37,252 nucleotides of DNA from Rhodothermaceae bacterium. GTDB taxonomy: Bacteria > Bacteroidota > Rhodothermia > Balneolales > Cyclonatronaceae. Position numbers and translations under genes: made by a program. The stretch spans positions 1 through 37,252 of the forward strand of contig JAIVHB010000138.1 in assembly GCA_020201275.1 (NCBI GenBank), in the 5' to 3' direction. Positions 1,280-16,357 of this stretch are shown piece after piece. Under the pieces are notes generated by a model. The model was not told where the DNA came from. It worked only from the letters and a program-made list of their open reading frames with translations, and did no database searches. Position 1 is the stretch's first letter. Each line of letters begins with the position of its first letter.

Positions 1280-4153
1280 CTACCCAGCCATATCGATTGT
1301 CCGGGTATTTTCCAGGTCGAACGCGCGGTCGAGGTCGGTGGCCGTATTGGTGAACAGTACAAGGTAAGCCCGGTGCAGAAACAGTGGCACGGTGAGCGAT
1401 CCGCGATCGACCGTGGCCAGCGGTATGGTGTAGCGGAACCGGAGGTTCCCCGCATTCCGGAATCCAATAAGGATGTTGCCGTCGAATTCGCGGCTGAGCC
1501 CGCTCAGGCTGTAGATGGGCCGGCTGCTCTGATAAACCCCCTCCACGGCCACCCGCAGCGAGTGGTTCACAGCCAGCGACGGACTGAGAAAACCGATCAC
1601 TCCGCCCCGCACCCCGCGCCTGAGCATATCTGCAGTTGTATAAAATTCATGATCTGTGGATGCAAAAACCACAAACCCGGTATTCGGCTGATGGTCGCGG
1701 ATGTTCTGCTGAAGCCGGTGGTACCAGGCCGCAAAAAAACCGAAACGCGCATTCTCAGACCGGTCTGAGATCACATCGCCCCGGCTGTCGATGACCTGAA
1801 GTGTTCCCATCCTCACGAACGGATCTGCCTGTAACCAGCTCGACCGGGCATACGTGTCGATGGTAAATGTGAGGGGGATGCCGGCACGAACGGCCGTCTC
1901 ATCGAGGATGTACTGTTCAACAACGCCATTGTTCAGAAATCCGGCCGTAGTGGGTTCACGGAAAGCGGAAAGGGCAATACCAGGAAAAAACGACCGGTTC
2001 CGGTAGGTCACATCGTACCACAACTGGCTGTTGGATGTAGTCAGTTCGAGCGTATAGTCACTGCGCCGGAGTACATCGCCACCGGCCAGCATCACACCGG
2101 GCCGGTATCCGACCGGACCCTGTTCGTATGTCAGCAGTGGTACAACCATCCGCGGCTTCAGGAAAGAGAAATAGTCGCGGTAGGGTCTTACCTCCCAATC
2201 GTGGGCCTTCTCGTCGAGGTGGCGGCCCAGGCGGCCGGCCTCCATCCGGTTCACCGAGGGCGACCTCCATATCACATCCGACAAATCAGCGTCCATAAAT
2301 TCGGATCTGTCCATCACGGCGCCCCTGTGGTAGCCCTCCTCGAGGGTTACGAACGCCACACGGTTTCCATCCGGCGAATATGACCCCTCGAAAGCGTTGT
2401 AGCGACTGTTGGTTACCTGCACCATGCGGTCGCGGGCCGGCTCGTATTCGTACAGGTTCATCACTCCGCCGTAATCGCTGCTAATGAGTAGACGGCTGCC
2501 ATCGGAGCTCCACTGCGGATCGAACACCACCGCGTCGCGGAATGCGATATCTGGGGTACGTTCGGTAATTTCGTATTCGCGGCCTTCATCGACCAGCCAC
2601 AGAGCCTGAACGCCGTTGCGGTTGGCGATTACGGCGTATTGGTTTTTTTGGGGGTCGGTGGTTGGGGGTTGATTTGTGGTTGATGGGGGGGTGTTATTTT
2701 TGACAGGATGAACAGGATGGACAGGATGGATTGGTTGTGCTGAGTTAATTGAATTTGCTGGGTTTGCCGGGTTTGATTTTGTTTGGGGTCTGGTGGCGAT
2801 TGCAACGAGGTTATCGGGGCGGACTTGCAGTACGGTTTCTTCGCGGCCGTCGGGATGGATGCGGACCCAGCGCGAGGATTCGTGATCATTTTTCAGGGCG
2901 TTAATCACACCGCCGGGACCGTAATCAGGGGCAAAAAGCCGGGCCTTTTCCGTTATTTGCCTCAAACTTCCTGTGGTGATGTCTACCTCGTGCAGGTCGG
3001 AGATAAACGTATTGTGATGCCACGGATGGGAATGCATGCGCGAGTAGACCAGATGGGTGCGATCAGTGCTGAGTGCATATCTGTAATCGCCAATAGTCCG
3101 TGATTCGAGCAGCATAGACATCCTCCCGGTCTGCAGGTTGTACCGGCGAAAGCCCGGGCGGTCGTTGTAGAACGATCCGTAGAACAGGATCTCATCATCG
3201 CTGATCCAGAGCGGGCGCCGTATCTCATCCCCCTTACGACCCGTTTGCAGAATGCGGTACGATGTGACCCCGGCCCGTTCAATCGATTGGAGCCGGAACG
3301 CTTCCTCATCCAGCTTATCGTCCATAAAATCGCGGTAGAGCGTTGATGGGCTGTCGCCGGTTACCGACCAGAGCGCCACACCATAGCCCAGAAACGGAAA
3401 CCGGGATACAAACCGGATGGTGTTTTTTGTGGTCTCAAAACCGTGCTCATACAGCAGCCAGGAGGTGAATTCATACCCTCCTGAGTAGATGCGGTTAAAC
3501 GGGCGGGTGGCCACCGGCGACTGATGCATCTGCGACAGCCTCCACGGGTTTTCCTGTAAACGGCTGCTGAAATTGCGCGTGAAATACGGGTAATTGCCCC
3601 GGCCGCCCTCGCGGTAGATCATATTGGTCTCATGAAAAACCGCGATGCCCTCGAACAGCCCAAAAGGGGCTGTCATGTGCACCATCCGCGACATATCGGG
3701 CGAAAACGGCCGGATCAGTCCACCCACGCCGATGGTCGGAGCCACCGACATATGCAGGGCGTGCACCAGCTCATGGGGAACCACATTCTCGAGCCAGCCG
3801 CCTGTGCGCGGGTTCATCGCCTTACCCCGAATGGACGGCACTTCCATTTCAATACGGAAGTGCAGCGGGGTAACGAACCCGTTCGCATTGTCGTTATAGC
3901 CGTTTAGCACCACCGGCAATTTGCGGACATTGCCACCTACCAACGACTGCACGATCTCGTACTGGCTTTCCAGGAGTTGGGCGGTGGTCCGGGCGGCCGA
4001 GTCTTCGCCCTCATGGTAAATCACCCGGAAATGTGGTGACCGAAGCTCATACCAGTCCAGTTTCGGCCGGAACACGCTTTCATAGATCTGCGCCCGTAAT
4101 GGGGTGGCAGCCATCAACAGGATGAACAGAATAAGGAGTTTCCGGTAAGGCAA
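1280..4153 (-). CDS. Secreted HExxH peptidase-like / TolB-type beta-propeller / outer-membrane barrel protein
   Basis: Signal peptide (residues 1-21, ending PLRAQ), then a gluzincin-like domain with HELVH at 127-131 and a likely third zinc ligand in FEGIAVF near 169. WD40-like/TolB propeller blades follow (for example DPQWSSDGSRLLISSD), then an aromatic-rich C-terminal region resembling outer-membrane beta-strands. The architecture matches the protein at 25778-28819. No ATG is available; translation appears to begin at TTG (4153), because an in-frame stop lies just upstream. Residues about 453-505 are a Pro/Asn/Thr-rich insert encoded by a low-complexity repeat (see 2641-2795). The protein ends ...ENTRTIDMAG without the usual terminal aromatic strand, so the barrel may be truncated. 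Peptidase activity is inferred from the motif only. Confidence 0.75.
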   Translation of the reverse strand: MPYRKLLILFILLMAATPLRAQIYESVFRPKLDWYELRSPHFRVIYHEGEDSAARTTAQLLESQYEIVQSLVGGNVRKLPVVLNGYNDNANGFVTPLHFRIEMEVPSIRGKAMNPRTGGWLENVVPHELVHALHMSVAPTIGVGGLIRPFSPDMSRMVHMTAPFGLFEGIAVFHETNMIYREGGRGNYPYFTRNFSSRLQENPWRLSQMHQSPVATRPFNRIYSGGYEFTSWLLYEHGFETTKNTIRFVSRFPFLGYGVALWSVTGDSPSTLYRDFMDDKLDEEAFRLQSIERAGVTSYRILQTGRKGDEIRRPLWISDDEILFYGSFYNDRPGFRRYNLQTGRMSMLLESRTIGDYRYALSTDRTHLVYSRMHSHPWHHNTFISDLHEVDITTGSLRQITEKARLFAPDYGPGGVINALKNDHESSRWVRIHPDGREETVLQVRPDNLVAIATRPQTKSNPANPANSINSAQPIHPVHPVHPVKNNTPPSTTNQPPTTDPQKNQYAVIANRNGVQALWLVDEGREYEITERTPDIAFRDAVVFDPQWSSDGSRLLISSDYGGVMNLYEYEPARDRMVQVTNSRYNAFEGSYSPDGNRVAFVTLEEGYHRGAVMDRSEFMDADLSDVIWRSPSVNRMEAGRLGRHLDEKAHDWEVRPYRDYFSFLKPRMVVPLLTYEQGPVGYRPGVMLAGGDVLRRSDYTLELTTSNSQLWYDVTYRNRSFFPGIALSAFREPTTAGFLNNGVVEQYILDETAVRAGIPLTFTIDTYARSSWLQADPFVRMGTLQVIDSRGDVISDRSENARFGFFAAWYHRLQQNIRDHQPNTGFVVFASTDHEFYTTADMLRRGVRGGVIGFLSPSLAVNHSLRVAVEGVYQSSRPIYSLSGLSREFDGNILIGFRNAGNLRFRYTIPLATVDRGSLTVPLFLHRAYLVLFTNTATDLDRAFDLENTRTIDMAG
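2641..2795 (-). repeat. Low-complexity intergenic-type repeat carried in-frame inside a coding region
   Basis: The minus strand carries three copies of the 9-bp unit CATCCTGTY (2703-2729 on the plus strand as ACAGGATGR), flanked by other 9-bp-periodic stretches (TTTGCTGGG, TTTGCCGGG) and homopolymer-rich C/A tracts. It is translated as Asn-Pro-Ala, His-Pro-Val and Thr/Pro-rich residues in the middle of a beta-propeller. Tandem CATCCTGT-type sequences are more typical of spacers between genes. Its length keeps the frame open. Confidence 0.7.
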
Positions 4154-12566: not shown

Positions 12567-14327
12567 ATGAATAACACACCCCAGACAGCATCCCTACGAA
12601 CCATAGGCCTGACCGGTGCAACCGGCATTGGGGTTGGTGCGATGGTTGGCGGGGGCATCCTGGCCCTGGCCGGTGTGGCGTTCGCGGTGAGCGGCCCCTC
12701 AGCCATCCTGGCATTTGCCCTCAACGGTTTGATCGCGCTTGTTACCGCGTTGAGTTTTGCCGAAATGGCTGCGGCAAACCCGCAAAGCGGAGGCACCTAT
12801 ACCTACGCAAAGAAAGCACTGACCGTACAGGTGGCATTCGGAGTGGGATGGGTGGTCTGGTTTGCATCGCTGGTTGCAGCCGTACTGTACGCCCTGGGTT
12901 TCGGCGCCTTTGCATCATTTGCCCTGCAACAAATTCCCGCTGGTGAGGTTGCCGATCTGCTGCAGCACCGTGCTGTTCCCGTACTGCTGGCACTGGGGTC
13001 GCTCGTATTTTACGGATACAAACTGACCCGGACCACCGGAAGCGGCGGTCGGTTTGCCAACATCGCGAAGCTTGCTGTATTCGCCGTACTCATTGCCGGC
13101 GGACTGGCCGTGATGGTGCAAACACCGTTTTCCCGCATTACCGAAAGTGTTACCCCCTTTTTCGGCGGTGGATTCAGCGGGCTGATTGCTGCCATGGGCT
13201 TCACCTTCATTGCGCTTCAGGGATTTGACCTGATTGCTTCTGCGGCCGGGGAGATCAAATCCCCTGAAAAGACCATCCCGAAGGCCATGGTGGGTACTCT
13301 CGTGATTGGCCTCATCATCTATATCCCCCTTCTTTTTGTGATGATGACGGTGGGAATGCAGCCCGGCGAGGGAATCATGGATGCCAGCGCCGCAAACCCC
13401 GAAACGATAATAGCCATTGCGGCGCAGAACTATCTGGGCGCTTTCGGTTTCTGGCTCGTTATGGTGGCAGGTATCTTTTCCATGCTATCTGCCCTTCAGG
13501 CCAACCTGTTTGCGGGATCACGTATCGTCCTCAGTATGGCGAAAGACCGGACACTAACCCATCATCTGTCCGAAATTGACATCCGGCACGGTACCCCTGT
13601 CCGCGCTATCCTCGTCACATGTGGCATTGTAGCTGTGCTGATCCTCATTCTTCCGGATGTTGCCGCGGCAGGCGCCGCATCCAGTCTCATCTTCCTCATC
13701 ACATTTGCACTGGCTCACGCTGTGATGATGCTTATGCGAAAGCGGACTTTCGGTAAATCGGAAACCTTCCGGGTGCCGTGGTTTCCGGTACTGCCGGTAA
13801 TCGGGATGGTGGCCTGTATTGCCCTGGCCCTGTTTCAGGCCGTGACCGTACCCTCGGCCGGTATCATTTCATTGATCTGGCTTCTGATAGGTTCGGTTCT
13901 TTTTGCTTCTTTTTTTATAAAGCGGGCACGGGCCATTGATGCATCCGAACAGGCGCTTGATCCGGACCTGGTTCGCCTCAGAGGGCTGAATCCGCTGGTT
14001 CTGCTGCCCATTTCCAACCCCGCAAACGCCGAGTCGATGGTCTTTGTAGCCAATGCCCTGGCTCCGCCTGTGGTCGGACGGGTTTTGCTGTTATCCATTG
14101 TTATCCCCAGCGAGGACCAGGACAACATTCACCGGCAGCTGGGCAATAACCGGGATGCCTTTCAATTCGCGCTTAAAGCCTCCTTCGACTCGGGTTTGCG
14201 TCCCGACGCCCTCACCACCATCGCCAGCGAACCCTGGGCGGAAATCGAACGCGTGGTAAAGGTGCACCGCTGCAGGAGCATGCTTATTGGATTAAGCAGT
14301 TTCAGCGACAGGCACGCAACGTTCTGA
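12567..14327 (+). CDS. APC-superfamily amino-acid permease with N-terminal part of a universal-stress tail (frameshifted)
   Basis: The ATG at 12567 begins the APC signature GLTGATGIGVGAMVGGGILA. About 12 hydrophobic segments follow to residue ~450, including GFTFIALQGFDLIASAAGEI. A hydrophilic region (about 465-575) resembles a UspA-like domain. APC permeases carry amino acids by proton symport or exchange; C-terminal Usp domains are common in this subgroup and probably sense nucleotides or regulate. The frame ends at 14327 after ...LIGLSSFSDRHATF, where intact relatives continue through a second Usp-like module. That module is present downstream in another frame (14303-14692). The transporter core is complete, so a truncated but functional carrier is conceivable. 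Confidence 0.8.
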   Translation: MNNTPQTASLRTIGLTGATGIGVGAMVGGGILALAGVAFAVSGPSAILAFALNGLIALVTALSFAEMAAANPQSGGTYTYAKKALTVQVAFGVGWVVWFASLVAAVLYALGFGAFASFALQQIPAGEVADLLQHRAVPVLLALGSLVFYGYKLTRTTGSGGRFANIAKLAVFAVLIAGGLAVMVQTPFSRITESVTPFFGGGFSGLIAAMGFTFIALQGFDLIASAAGEIKSPEKTIPKAMVGTLVIGLIIYIPLLFVMMTVGMQPGEGIMDASAANPETIIAIAAQNYLGAFGFWLVMVAGIFSMLSALQANLFAGSRIVLSMAKDRTLTHHLSEIDIRHGTPVRAILVTCGIVAVLILILPDVAAAGAASSLIFLITFALAHAVMMLMRKRTFGKSETFRVPWFPVLPVIGMVACIALALFQAVTVPSAGIISLIWLLIGSVLFASFFIKRARAIDASEQALDPDLVRLRGLNPLVLLPISNPANAESMVFVANALAPPVVGRVLLLSIVIPSEDQDNIHRQLGNNRDAFQFALKASFDSGLRPDALTTIASEPWAEIERVVKVHRCRSMLIGLSSFSDRHATF

Positions 14328-14692
14328 TTCCTATTGCCGGTTTCGGTGCGCACGATACGCTTCGTGCCCGCGTGGCCGCAAGCCTTTGGAGGGCTAGCCA
14401 ACCCGATATTACCTTCCTCCAGATCCTTCCGACCAATACTTCGAATGAGAAAGTCCGGAAAAGCCAGAAAGATCTTTCGCGATTTTCCGGCCGCATCATT
14501 CCCGGGAAGACCGAAGCACGTATTGTGCTGAGTGACGATGTAAAGGGCGAACTGGTGCGGCAGACTGCCGAGCACGATCTTGTGATCATGGGCCTCGGTA
14601 AACCCGGACCGAATGAAAAAGCGTTCGGCAGCATTCCCCTGAGCATGGCCGAAGAGACGAACTCTGCCCTGATATTTATCAGCAATAAGTAA
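14303..14692 (+). pseudogene. Out-of-frame C-terminal universal-stress domain of the preceding permease
   Basis: This frame reads QRQARNVLIPIAGFGAHDTL, then ITFLQILP, DLVIMGLGKPG and ETNSALIFISNK, ending at TAA 14690-14692. The pattern VLIPIAG...DLVIMG matches a UspA-like alpha/beta module. It overlaps the end of the permease frame in a different phase. Compared with relatives, roughly 30-40 residues between the two Usp halves appear to be missing at the junction, so a small deletion probably caused the frame change. No independent start or ribosome site is evident. Confidence 0.65.
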
Positions 14693-14732
14693 GGCTGCTC
14701 AATTGGTTTGATATGAAAAAATATTTTGAACA

Positions 14733-14770
14733 TTCCATAGATCATCGTATTTTTACGATGATCTATGGAA
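14733..14770. promoter_or_regulatory. Perfect 17-bp inverted repeat overlapping the arsR start codon (operator 1)
   Basis: The left arm TTCCATAGATCATCGTA (14733-14749) and right arm TACGATGATCTATGGAA (14754-14770) are exact reverse complements around TTTT. The ATG of arsR (14765-14767) is inside the right arm. The centre, ATCGTA-N4-TACGAT, recurs upstream of the thioredoxin gene. ArsR-family repressors bind such dyads, so autoregulation is the obvious reading. As RNA the same sequence would fold into a 17-pair hairpin enclosing the AUG. Confidence 0.8.
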
Positions 14771-15061
14771 ACAGTGAAATCCGCCATATTAACTAATGAA
14801 GACCGGCTCGCCCGGTATGCGAAAGCGCTCGGCCATCCCGTGCGCGTCTCTATCCTGAAATACCTCAGTTCGATTAATGCCTGCTGTGCCGGCAGCATCT
14901 TCGATCAGGTGCCAATGGCCCAGTCCACCGTATCCCAGCATCTTAAGGAGCTGAAGAAGGCCGGGCTGATTCAGGGCATGATCGATCCGCCAAGGGTCCA
15001 TTACTGTATTAACCGAAAAAACTGGGATGAGGCAAGGAAGCTGTTTTCAGAGTTTTTCTGA
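14765..15061 (+). CDS. ArsR/SmtB-family metal- or redox-responsive repressor
   Basis: 98 residues forming one winged-helix domain: LGHPVRVSILKYL, then recognition helix AQSTVSQHLKELKKAGLI and wing PRVHYCIN. Two adjacent cysteines (Cys40-Cys41, NACCAGSI) lie where arsenic- or metal-sensing members of this family place thiol ligands. The gene is followed by a thioredoxin-like protein and a YraQ/ArsP-type permease on the same strand, a recurrent ArsR cassette. There is no Shine-Dalgarno sequence; the start codon lies within the palindrome at 14733-14770, hinting at a leaderless transcript or translational masking. The inducer cannot be read from the sequence; arsenite, an organoarsenical or another thiophile is plausible. 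Confidence 0.88.
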   Translation: METVKSAILTNEDRLARYAKALGHPVRVSILKYLSSINACCAGSIFDQVPMAQSTVSQHLKELKKAGLIQGMIDPPRVHYCINRKNWDEARKLFSEFF

Positions 15062-15079: not shown

Positions 15080-15102
15080 ATCGTAAATCTACGATATACG
15101 AT
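15080..15102. promoter_or_regulatory. Second ArsR-type operator upstream of the thioredoxin gene (operator 2)
   Basis: ATCGTA (15080-15085), spacer AATC and TACGAT (15090-15095) reproduce the 6-4-6 core of operator 1. A third half-site TACGAT follows one base later (15097-15102). It lies 39 bases before the ATG of the thioredoxin-like gene. Its presence suggests a second regulated promoter inside the cassette, controlled by the same repressor. Confidence 0.7.
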
Positions 15103-15141
15103 ATATCATATACAACCAAACATTACCAAACCGAAAACACC

Positions 15142-15375
15142 ATGAAAAATATCAAAATACTGGGCCCTGGCTGCGTCAGATGCCGCGACACAGAGATGAA
15201 TGTGAAAAAAGCCCTCGAAGACCTCGGCATTGAAGCCAATGTGTCAAAAATCACGGACTATCCCCAGATCATGGAATACGACATCATGTCGACCCCGGCC
15301 CTGGTCGTTGACGAAGTGGTGAAAGTGTCGGGCCGTATCCCGACTGTAAATGAAATCAAAACATTTCTGAGCTGA
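15142..15375 (+). CDS. Small thioredoxin-like redox-active disulfide protein
   Basis: 77 residues with ILGPGCVRCRD (CxxC at Cys11/Cys14) and the cis-Pro motif MSTPALVVDE, the minimal thioredoxin fold of the 'redox-active disulfide protein 2' family. It has no signal peptide, so it acts in the cytoplasm. It ends seven bases before the permease gene and is preceded by operator 2, so the two are probably co-transcribed and ArsR-controlled. In comparable cassettes the protein accompanies a DUF318/ArsP-type permease and may pass electrons or a thiol-bound ligand to it; that role is inferred. Confidence 0.88.
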   Translation: MKNIKILGPGCVRCRDTEMNVKKALEDLGIEANVSKITDYPQIMEYDIMSTPALVVDEVVKVSGRIPTVNEIKTFLS

Positions 15376-15382
15376 TACACCC

Positions 15383-16357
15383 ATGTTTGAGTGGACACAA
15401 CTTTTTGCCGACTGGCTTATTTACGGATTAATCGGACTCGAAGAGGGCACCAGTCTTGGGAATGCCCTCAACTTTTTCGTCTATGATGTAATCAAAATCA
15501 TGATCCTTCTTTTCCTTATCAGCATGCTGATGGGGATCGTCAACGCCTGGTTTCCGGTCGAAAGGGTGCGGGATTTCATCTCATCCAGAAAACTCTACGG
15601 CATGCAATACCTGTTTGCCGCCATATTCGGGGCGGTAACACCGTTCTGTTCATGTTCATCGGTACCGCTGTTCATCGGATTTGTGAAGGGAGGAATACCT
15701 CTGGGGGTCACCTTTGCCTTTCTGATCACATCCCCTCTTGTAAACGAGGTGGCTGTGGCCATATTTCTCGGCATGTTCGGCCTGAAACTGACCCTGATCT
15801 ATGTAACCACAGGCATCCTGCTCGGCACCCTTGGTGGATATGTTCTCGAAAAACTCAAGCTCGATCATTTGCTCACCGACTGGGTGCAGACCCTTCAGCA
15901 CAACAGCTCGGATCCCGATGGTTTTGATGCCGGTGAGCGCACAATCTGGCAGCGCATGCCTGAAATCAGCCGGGAGGCCACAAGCATCCTGAAAGCGGTG
16001 GGGATCTATGTAGTTATAGGCATCGGCATCGGTGCAGCCATGCACGGCTATGTGCCCGAGGGGTTTTTTGAACCCTATATCGGTCCCGAAAACGTGCTGG
16101 CCGTACCCATGGCCGTAATTCTGGCTGTGCCCCTGTACGCGAACGCAGCCGGGATCGTGCCTGTAATCCAGGTATTTGTGGCCAAAGGCGTACCGATAGG
16201 TACCGCCATCGCTTTCATGATGGCGACCATCGGCCTTTCAATACCCGAAGCCGCTCTGCTCAAAAAGGTGATGAGCACGAAACTGATCCTTATCTTTTTC
16301 GGCGTCGTCACGGTTTTCATCATTATAAGCGGCCTGTTCTTCAATCTTGTATTGTGA
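15383..16357 (+). CDS. YraQ/ArsP-like permease (DUF318 family)
   Basis: 324 residues with about eight hydrophobic helices. The family's defining motif TPFCSCSSVPLFIGF (Cys89, Cys91) and a second half-motif ANAAGIVPVIQ are present. DUF318 permeases include ArsP, which exports trivalent organoarsenicals, but most members have unknown substrates. The intracellular CxC pair is the likely thiophile-binding site. Its position in an ArsR/thioredoxin cassette supports efflux of a thiol-reactive metalloid or metal. The ATG at 15383 follows the upstream stop by only seven bases, consistent with an operon. Confidence 0.85.
   Translation: MFEWTQLFADWLIYGLIGLEEGTSLGNALNFFVYDVIKIMILLFLISMLMGIVNAWFPVERVRDFISSRKLYGMQYLFAAIFGAVTPFCSCSSVPLFIGFVKGGIPLGVTFAFLITSPLVNEVAVAIFLGMFGLKLTLIYVTTGILLGTLGGYVLEKLKLDHLLTDWVQTLQHNSSDPDGFDAGERTIWQRMPEISREATSILKAVGIYVVIGIGIGAAMHGYVPEGFFEPYIGPENVLAVPMAVILAVPLYANAAGIVPVIQVFVAKGVPIGTAIAFMMATIGLSIPEAALLKKVMSTKLILIFFGVVTVFIIISGLFFNLVL

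Follow-up and report, generated by a model that had tools for sequence, protein, structure and literature searches.

The centre of a perfect inverted repeat at the start of an arsR gene in a Rhodothermaceae bacterium is very probably the operator of an autoregulatory, Bacteroidota-type ArsR repressor, lying over the predicted arsR promoter and flanked by outer arms that would form no part of the operator. The repeat occupies positions 14733-14770 of the window, by which is meant the whole 37,252-nucleotide stretch of DNA analyzed. It reads TTCCATAGATCATCGTA-TTTT-TACGATGATCTATGGAA, an exact 17-4-17 dyad with arms (14733-14749 and 14754-14770) that are 100% complementary and with the arsR ATG at 14765 inside the right arm, as a preliminary description of this DNA had it. 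When perfect dyads were computed across the window, this repeat was the longest, the runner-up having an arm of 10 bp once sub-registers of the repeat itself were excluded, and perfect arms in 40 dinucleotide-shuffled versions of the window reached at most 14 bp. Perfect arms of at least 17 bp with loops of 0-12 nucleotides are expected ∼3e-5 times per window and, at the local A+T-rich composition, ∼0.02 times in 3.4 Mb. The dyad is far beyond chance.

The arsR gene (14765-15061, forward strand, 98 codons) encodes a protein that scored 48.3 bits (cut-off 22; E 9e-13) against Pfam PF01022 and 62.5 bits (cut-off 55) against NCBIfam NF033788 in a profile search and that belongs to the ArsR/SmtB repressors by its winged-helix HTH_5/metalloregulator profile. 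Given the in-frame TGA at 14759-14761, there is no start upstream of 14765, and in the same-genus relative L002 the sole ATG is spaced from the dyad exactly as it is here. A protein search (E 0.001) of the organism's own genome revealed no second copy or paralogue of ArsR. The gene is followed on the same strand by those for an ArsE-family thioredoxin-like protein of 77 residues (15142-15375; TIGR00412 above cut-off, PF13192) and an ArsP_1-family permease of 324 residues (15383-16357; PF03773, E 2.5e-65), the latter falling below cut-off for the SaoE and SO_0444 equivalogs. The gene upstream of arsR, also on the forward strand, ends at 14692. Within the region 12567-14692, an amino-acid permease reading frame stops at 14327 and a universal-stress-like continuation follows in another frame at 14372-14692. 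The break at 14327 is either a frameshift or an assembly error, and the 106-residue piece had no Pfam match.

Conservation of the dyad was computed over 177 arsR loci, comprising 97 from the same order (among the matches listed) and the best 80 of 573 from named-genome relatives, mostly Bacteroidota. Eight further loci (L011-L018) were excluded as weak paralogues, with L012 at a contig end; an arsR match was present in six of these eight, and the core described below in none of the six. The pattern TCG-N8-CGA, contained in the window as ATCGTA-TTTT-TACGAT (14744-14759, no strand assigned), was found just upstream of arsR in 138 of the 177 loci. The same pattern occurred in 6 of 172 control upstream stretches and in 0 of 177 in-gene stretches, while a reversed motif and another dyad gave 5 and 0 matches, respectively, in 177. 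With one mismatch permitted, the core was detected in 155 of 177 loci versus 31 of 172 control stretches. Several of the 39 loci without the exact core carry a one-base variant, and some have nothing similar. Four loci (L020, L028, L032 and L039) carry three half-sites in a row upstream of arsR, for example TTCGTAGTTTTGCGAATTACGAA in L039, such that two dyads overlap.

A perfect intergenic inverted repeat can also be an intrinsic terminator or the end of a mobile element. The probability of either here is negligible, with no T run after the right arm, no terminator found in a scan of both strands, no Rfam match in the window and a core that accompanies the arsR start in 138 of 177 loci.

Pairing between the arms was assessed against a null in which each left flank was matched to the right flanks of other loci. 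Arm position 8 was paired without exception in the 79 own-order and 59 named-genome rows with the core, for which the null means were 95 and 64%, respectively; the pair is A:T in 91 rows and T:A in 47, and is a true two-sided change. Pairing at position 9 was also above the null in the named-genome group (from the best 80 of 573). Further out, no consistent excess over the cross-pairing null was observed across the relatives, position 12 alone standing out in the own-order group, and beyond approximately position 12 there was none. The comparison indicates that the core is the conserved operator and that long outer arms are sporadic. Conservation of both arms with compensatory changes, proposed earlier as a check, was thus observed for the core (position 8 paired in 138 of 138 rows) and not for the outer arms. 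The remark that the dyad is long for an ArsR operator holds for the palindrome but not for the conserved operator, the core being 16 bp, or 20 bp within the genus.

The identity of arm position 8 is matched by residue 53 in the ArsR recognition helix, which is Gln where the arm has A and Lys, Arg or Leu where it has T, with no exception in 138 rows; since the tree requires only two changes of either trait, this match is not independent proof. In the same tree, built on 78 columns, the two loci of this genus (L001 and L002) lie nearest by path to Bacteroidales rows, without support, and horizontal transfer is not claimed.

A search of the organism's own genome with the exact pattern ATCGTANNNNTACGAT returned four sites, all at ars genes, and the backwards pattern returned none. 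The sites lie at the arsR start, in the gap between arsR and arsE, immediately before arsD-arsA (L237), and ahead of a usp gene that has arsB after it (L232). The second of these, ATCGTAAATCTACGAT at 15080-15095 (no strand assigned), matches the pattern exactly and is found at the same distance in L002. A second site after arsR was present in 71 of 177 loci, namely 53 of the named-genome set (best 80 of 573) and 18 of the 97 own-order loci among the matches listed. A further half-site (TACGATATACGATAT) follows the second operator within 15080-15110 and is kept in L002. The backwards pattern was absent from all five same-family genomes searched; in the more distant genomes G013 and G051 it matched 3 and 2 times per strand, and single sites there mean less for that reason. 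At L237, the arsD product (1547-2179) is fused to a C-terminal CMD/AhpD-like domain, and in the N terminus of ArsA (2204-3016) the Walker A stretch GKGGVGKTSLACATAIALADSGKKVLLI is present as two tandem copies, reflecting a duplication or an assembly error.

Protection of the same core has been shown for a homologue. In the study on Arsenicibacter rosenii SM-1 (PMC11868830), the DNase I footprint of its ArsR (ArArsR) is given as TTTTATCGTAATATTGCGATCACAATC, and this protein represses and is released by As(III) and methylarsenite (MAs(III)). ArArsR is thus likewise the repressor of a Bacteroidota ars operon, and its footprint holds ATCGTAATATTGCGAT, with the same TCG-N8-CGA core; protection, repression and release were all demonstrated for this homologue. 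The authors placed the site on a −35 element, whereas by the Bacteroidota consensus the core would, in our reading, lie on the −7 box. By our count from the published coordinates, the ArArsR leader would be ∼26 nucleotides, compared with ∼5 predicted in the window. This was the one footprint of the core found, and the literature searched contained no report of the window's locus, which is no proof of absence. Together, the presence of the core in 138 of 177 loci, the restriction of its genomic sites to ars genes and the published footprint on the same core support the earlier assignment of the dyad as a repressor operator.

The sensor site of the window ArsR resembles that of ArArsR in part. 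With numbering transferred via L079 (Spirosoma oryzae), C41 and C82 of ArArsR correspond to C40 and C81, whereas ArArsR C80, reported as needed for As(III) and not for methylarsenite, is replaced by H79 (PMC11868830). As only two of the three ligands are present (C40, H79, C81), the protein is not filed as an ArArsR-type As(III) sensor, although it may work like one. Among the 177 loci, only L001 and L002 have a cysteine at ArsR position 41. The combination of H79 and C41 would be compatible with a moved ligand or with a methylarsenite-selective sensor, in a protein encoded next to an ArsP_1-family permease.

The position of the core relative to the promoter was deduced from the main Bacteroidota promoter, reported as TTTG and TAnnTTTG, the second element spanning −12 to −5 (PMC9723704, PMC6847099). 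On the forward strand the window has TTTTG-N19-TATTTTTA, in which TTTTG (14724-14728; TTG at 14726-14728) is the predicted −33 element and TATTTTTA (14748-14755), inside the dyad, is the predicted −7 box, with one mismatch to consensus (final base A for G). The TTG-N19-TAnnTTT geometry is that of described −33/−7 promoters, the window differing in its last base (PMC6847099, PMC9723704, PMC7366714). The register is also that of other Bacteroidota loci. Among the 59 named-genome loci with the core (from the best 80 of 573), 35 match TAnnTTTG exactly over the 8 bases that separate TCG from CGA, and 31 have a TTG in the −33 register. In ∼234 kb from the organism's own genome, counting the window, and 400 kb from a genome of the same family, TAnnTTTG was weakly enriched upstream of genes (20 versus 12.2 expected, z 2.6) and TATAAT was not enriched. 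A σ70 promoter scan found none. A TTG-N17-TAtaaT arrangement in own-order loci was considered as σ70-like and set aside, because when aligned to the −7 consensus it fits better as TTG-N20-TAnnTTT at −16.

Transcription is predicted to start at 14760, 5 nucleotides after the box, giving a leader of 5 nucleotides (GATCT) before the ATG; the leader predicted for L002 is likewise 5 nucleotides. In 52 of 79 own-order relatives (among the matches listed, with lenient box scoring), the −7 box lies ∼12 nucleotides further upstream and the operator spans the start, so that the register of the window is a minority in its own order. The operator thus appears in two main registers ∼12 nucleotides apart, covering either the −7 box or the predicted start point. 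Among loci whose box falls within the dyad, the same lenient scoring predicts leaders of 0-8 nucleotides for 11 of 19 in the own order and 9 of 40 from named genomes. In seven own-order loci (L099, L100, L101, L104, L111, L113 and L119), the ATG coincides with the predicted start; these loci have weak boxes, and in some of them another candidate box lies upstream. By comparison, ∼3.7% of 5′ untranslated regions in Bacteroides thetaiotaomicron are shorter than 10 nucleotides and 5.5% of mRNAs with mapped starts in Flavobacterium psychrophilum are leaderless (PMC6847099, PMC9723704, PMC7366714).

The preliminary description also noted that no ribosome-binding site precedes arsR, and indeed no Shine-Dalgarno sequence is present. 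Such motifs preceded 30 of 477 starts in the own and same-family genomes versus 23 in a reversed control; since starts in these genomes generally lack one, its absence here is no hint of leaderlessness. The suggestion of a leaderless start is nevertheless plausible in a modified form, as the promoter-based leader is ∼5 nucleotides in both genomes of the genus, and the arsR start can plausibly be described as near-leaderless.

The same description had proposed that the palindrome acts twice, as a DNA operator and as an mRNA hairpin that hides the start codon, such that translation of arsR would require a transcript beginning at or close to the ATG. An RNA containing both arms does fold very strongly (−27.2 kcal/mol, z −7.7), with the start codon in the stem, and read-through RNA could exist given that arsR shares its strand with the gene before it and no terminator-like site was found between them. 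By contrast, RNA from 14760 onward folds no better than shuffled sequences (z +0.34). Because the left arm lies upstream of the predicted start, the hairpin would be impossible on mRNA from arsR's own promoter, and as this transcript would lack the left arm, the structure could exist only on read-through RNA. From the predicted starts, the left half of the dyad is left off the transcript in either promoter register, the start in the other relatives falling inside or after the dyad. In addition, pairing of the outer arms in relatives is not above the null, and L002 has a dyad of 8 bp. Of the features expected of a hairpin that hides a start codon, neither both arms on the predicted transcript nor compensatory pairing of the outer arms was found. 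With the predicted promoter inside the palindrome, the left arm before the predicted start and the outer arms not conserved, a dual element is quite improbable. Of the two observations named beforehand as counting against it, lack of conservation of the outer arms was found and a conserved start codon downstream was not. The palindrome most likely functions at the DNA level rather than as an RNA hairpin.

The outer left arm, TTCCATA (14733-14739, no strand assigned), is specific to this lineage and is the reverse complement of TATGGAA at the start codon. It is absent from L002, which reads TCATCGTA-TTTT-TACGATGA before diverging and which keeps the core, the spacing and the ATG around its 8-bp dyad. 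The alignment of the two has a 5-base gap in L002, and the five additional bases in the left arm of the window, CCATA, correspond to the start-codon TATGG in reverse complement. Template switching at an imperfect palindrome yields such reverse-complement copies, and in quasipalindrome mutations an imperfect repeat is likewise perfected by a short copy of this kind, here by the 5 bases in which the window differs from L002 (PMC7202029, PMC8794818). The outer left arm repeats the start-codon side in reverse, which suggests template switching, and the outer 7 bp of each arm most likely arose in the lineage of the window by a quasipalindrome template switch. In contrast to the known cases, this origin is inferred from one genome pair without an outgroup for direction, and a deletion in L002 is the alternative.

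Two other loci have arms of comparable length upstream of arsR. In L026 and L082, the arms outside the N8 centre are perfect over 18 and 16 bp, respectively, and the L026 arm touches the ATG. Measured from the centre, the arms reach 19 positions in the window, 22 in L026 and 20 in L082, and 0.02-0.04 loci per group would be expected to reach at least 19 under the null. This recurrence in distant loci would fit selection of the whole 38-bp palindrome as a high-affinity or two-dimer operator, in which the outer arms add contacts in this lineage. That reading is most improbable, as no shared motif was seen in the outer arms of these loci, the flanks of the other three genomic sites do not extend the dyad past position 9, and pairing shows no average excess beyond position 12. 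A further, improbable proposal from the same sequences is that ArsR operators of this group might serve as mutational seeds extended by template switching, as in the window, L026 and L082, and that the arsR ATG in the window would be locked in read-through RNA. If the seed reading were true, the start-codon region would be copied into the promoter now and then, turning short dyads into long perfect palindromes; if the lock were true, the repressor would be made only from arsR's own near-leaderless promoter.

The preferred reading is thus of a conserved dyad over the arsR promoter, as expected for autoregulation, with the core present in 138 of 177 loci and overlapping the predicted −7 box in the window. 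Here, an ArsR dimer would bind ATCGTA-N4-TACGAT, and bound ArsR would shut out RNA polymerase because the core overlies the predicted −7 box. Binding of a trivalent arsenical would free ArsR and allow transcription of arsR from approximately 14760 with a 5-nucleotide leader, the outer 7 bp of each arm lying outside the conserved operator. The same ArsR probably also controls arsE and the permease gene through the second operator, as well as arsDA and usp-arsB.

The operator of the window adds to the known ArsR operators, as an ordinary docking site within a palindrome that is unusually long in one genome. A single ArsR core motif is found in many Bacteroidota, positioned on the promoter in two main registers, and the arsenic genes that it marks in the organism's own genome are directly testable. 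The locus also cautions against taking every perfect palindrome over a start codon for an RNA device: a large part of the length may be confined to one lineage and missing from the transcript.
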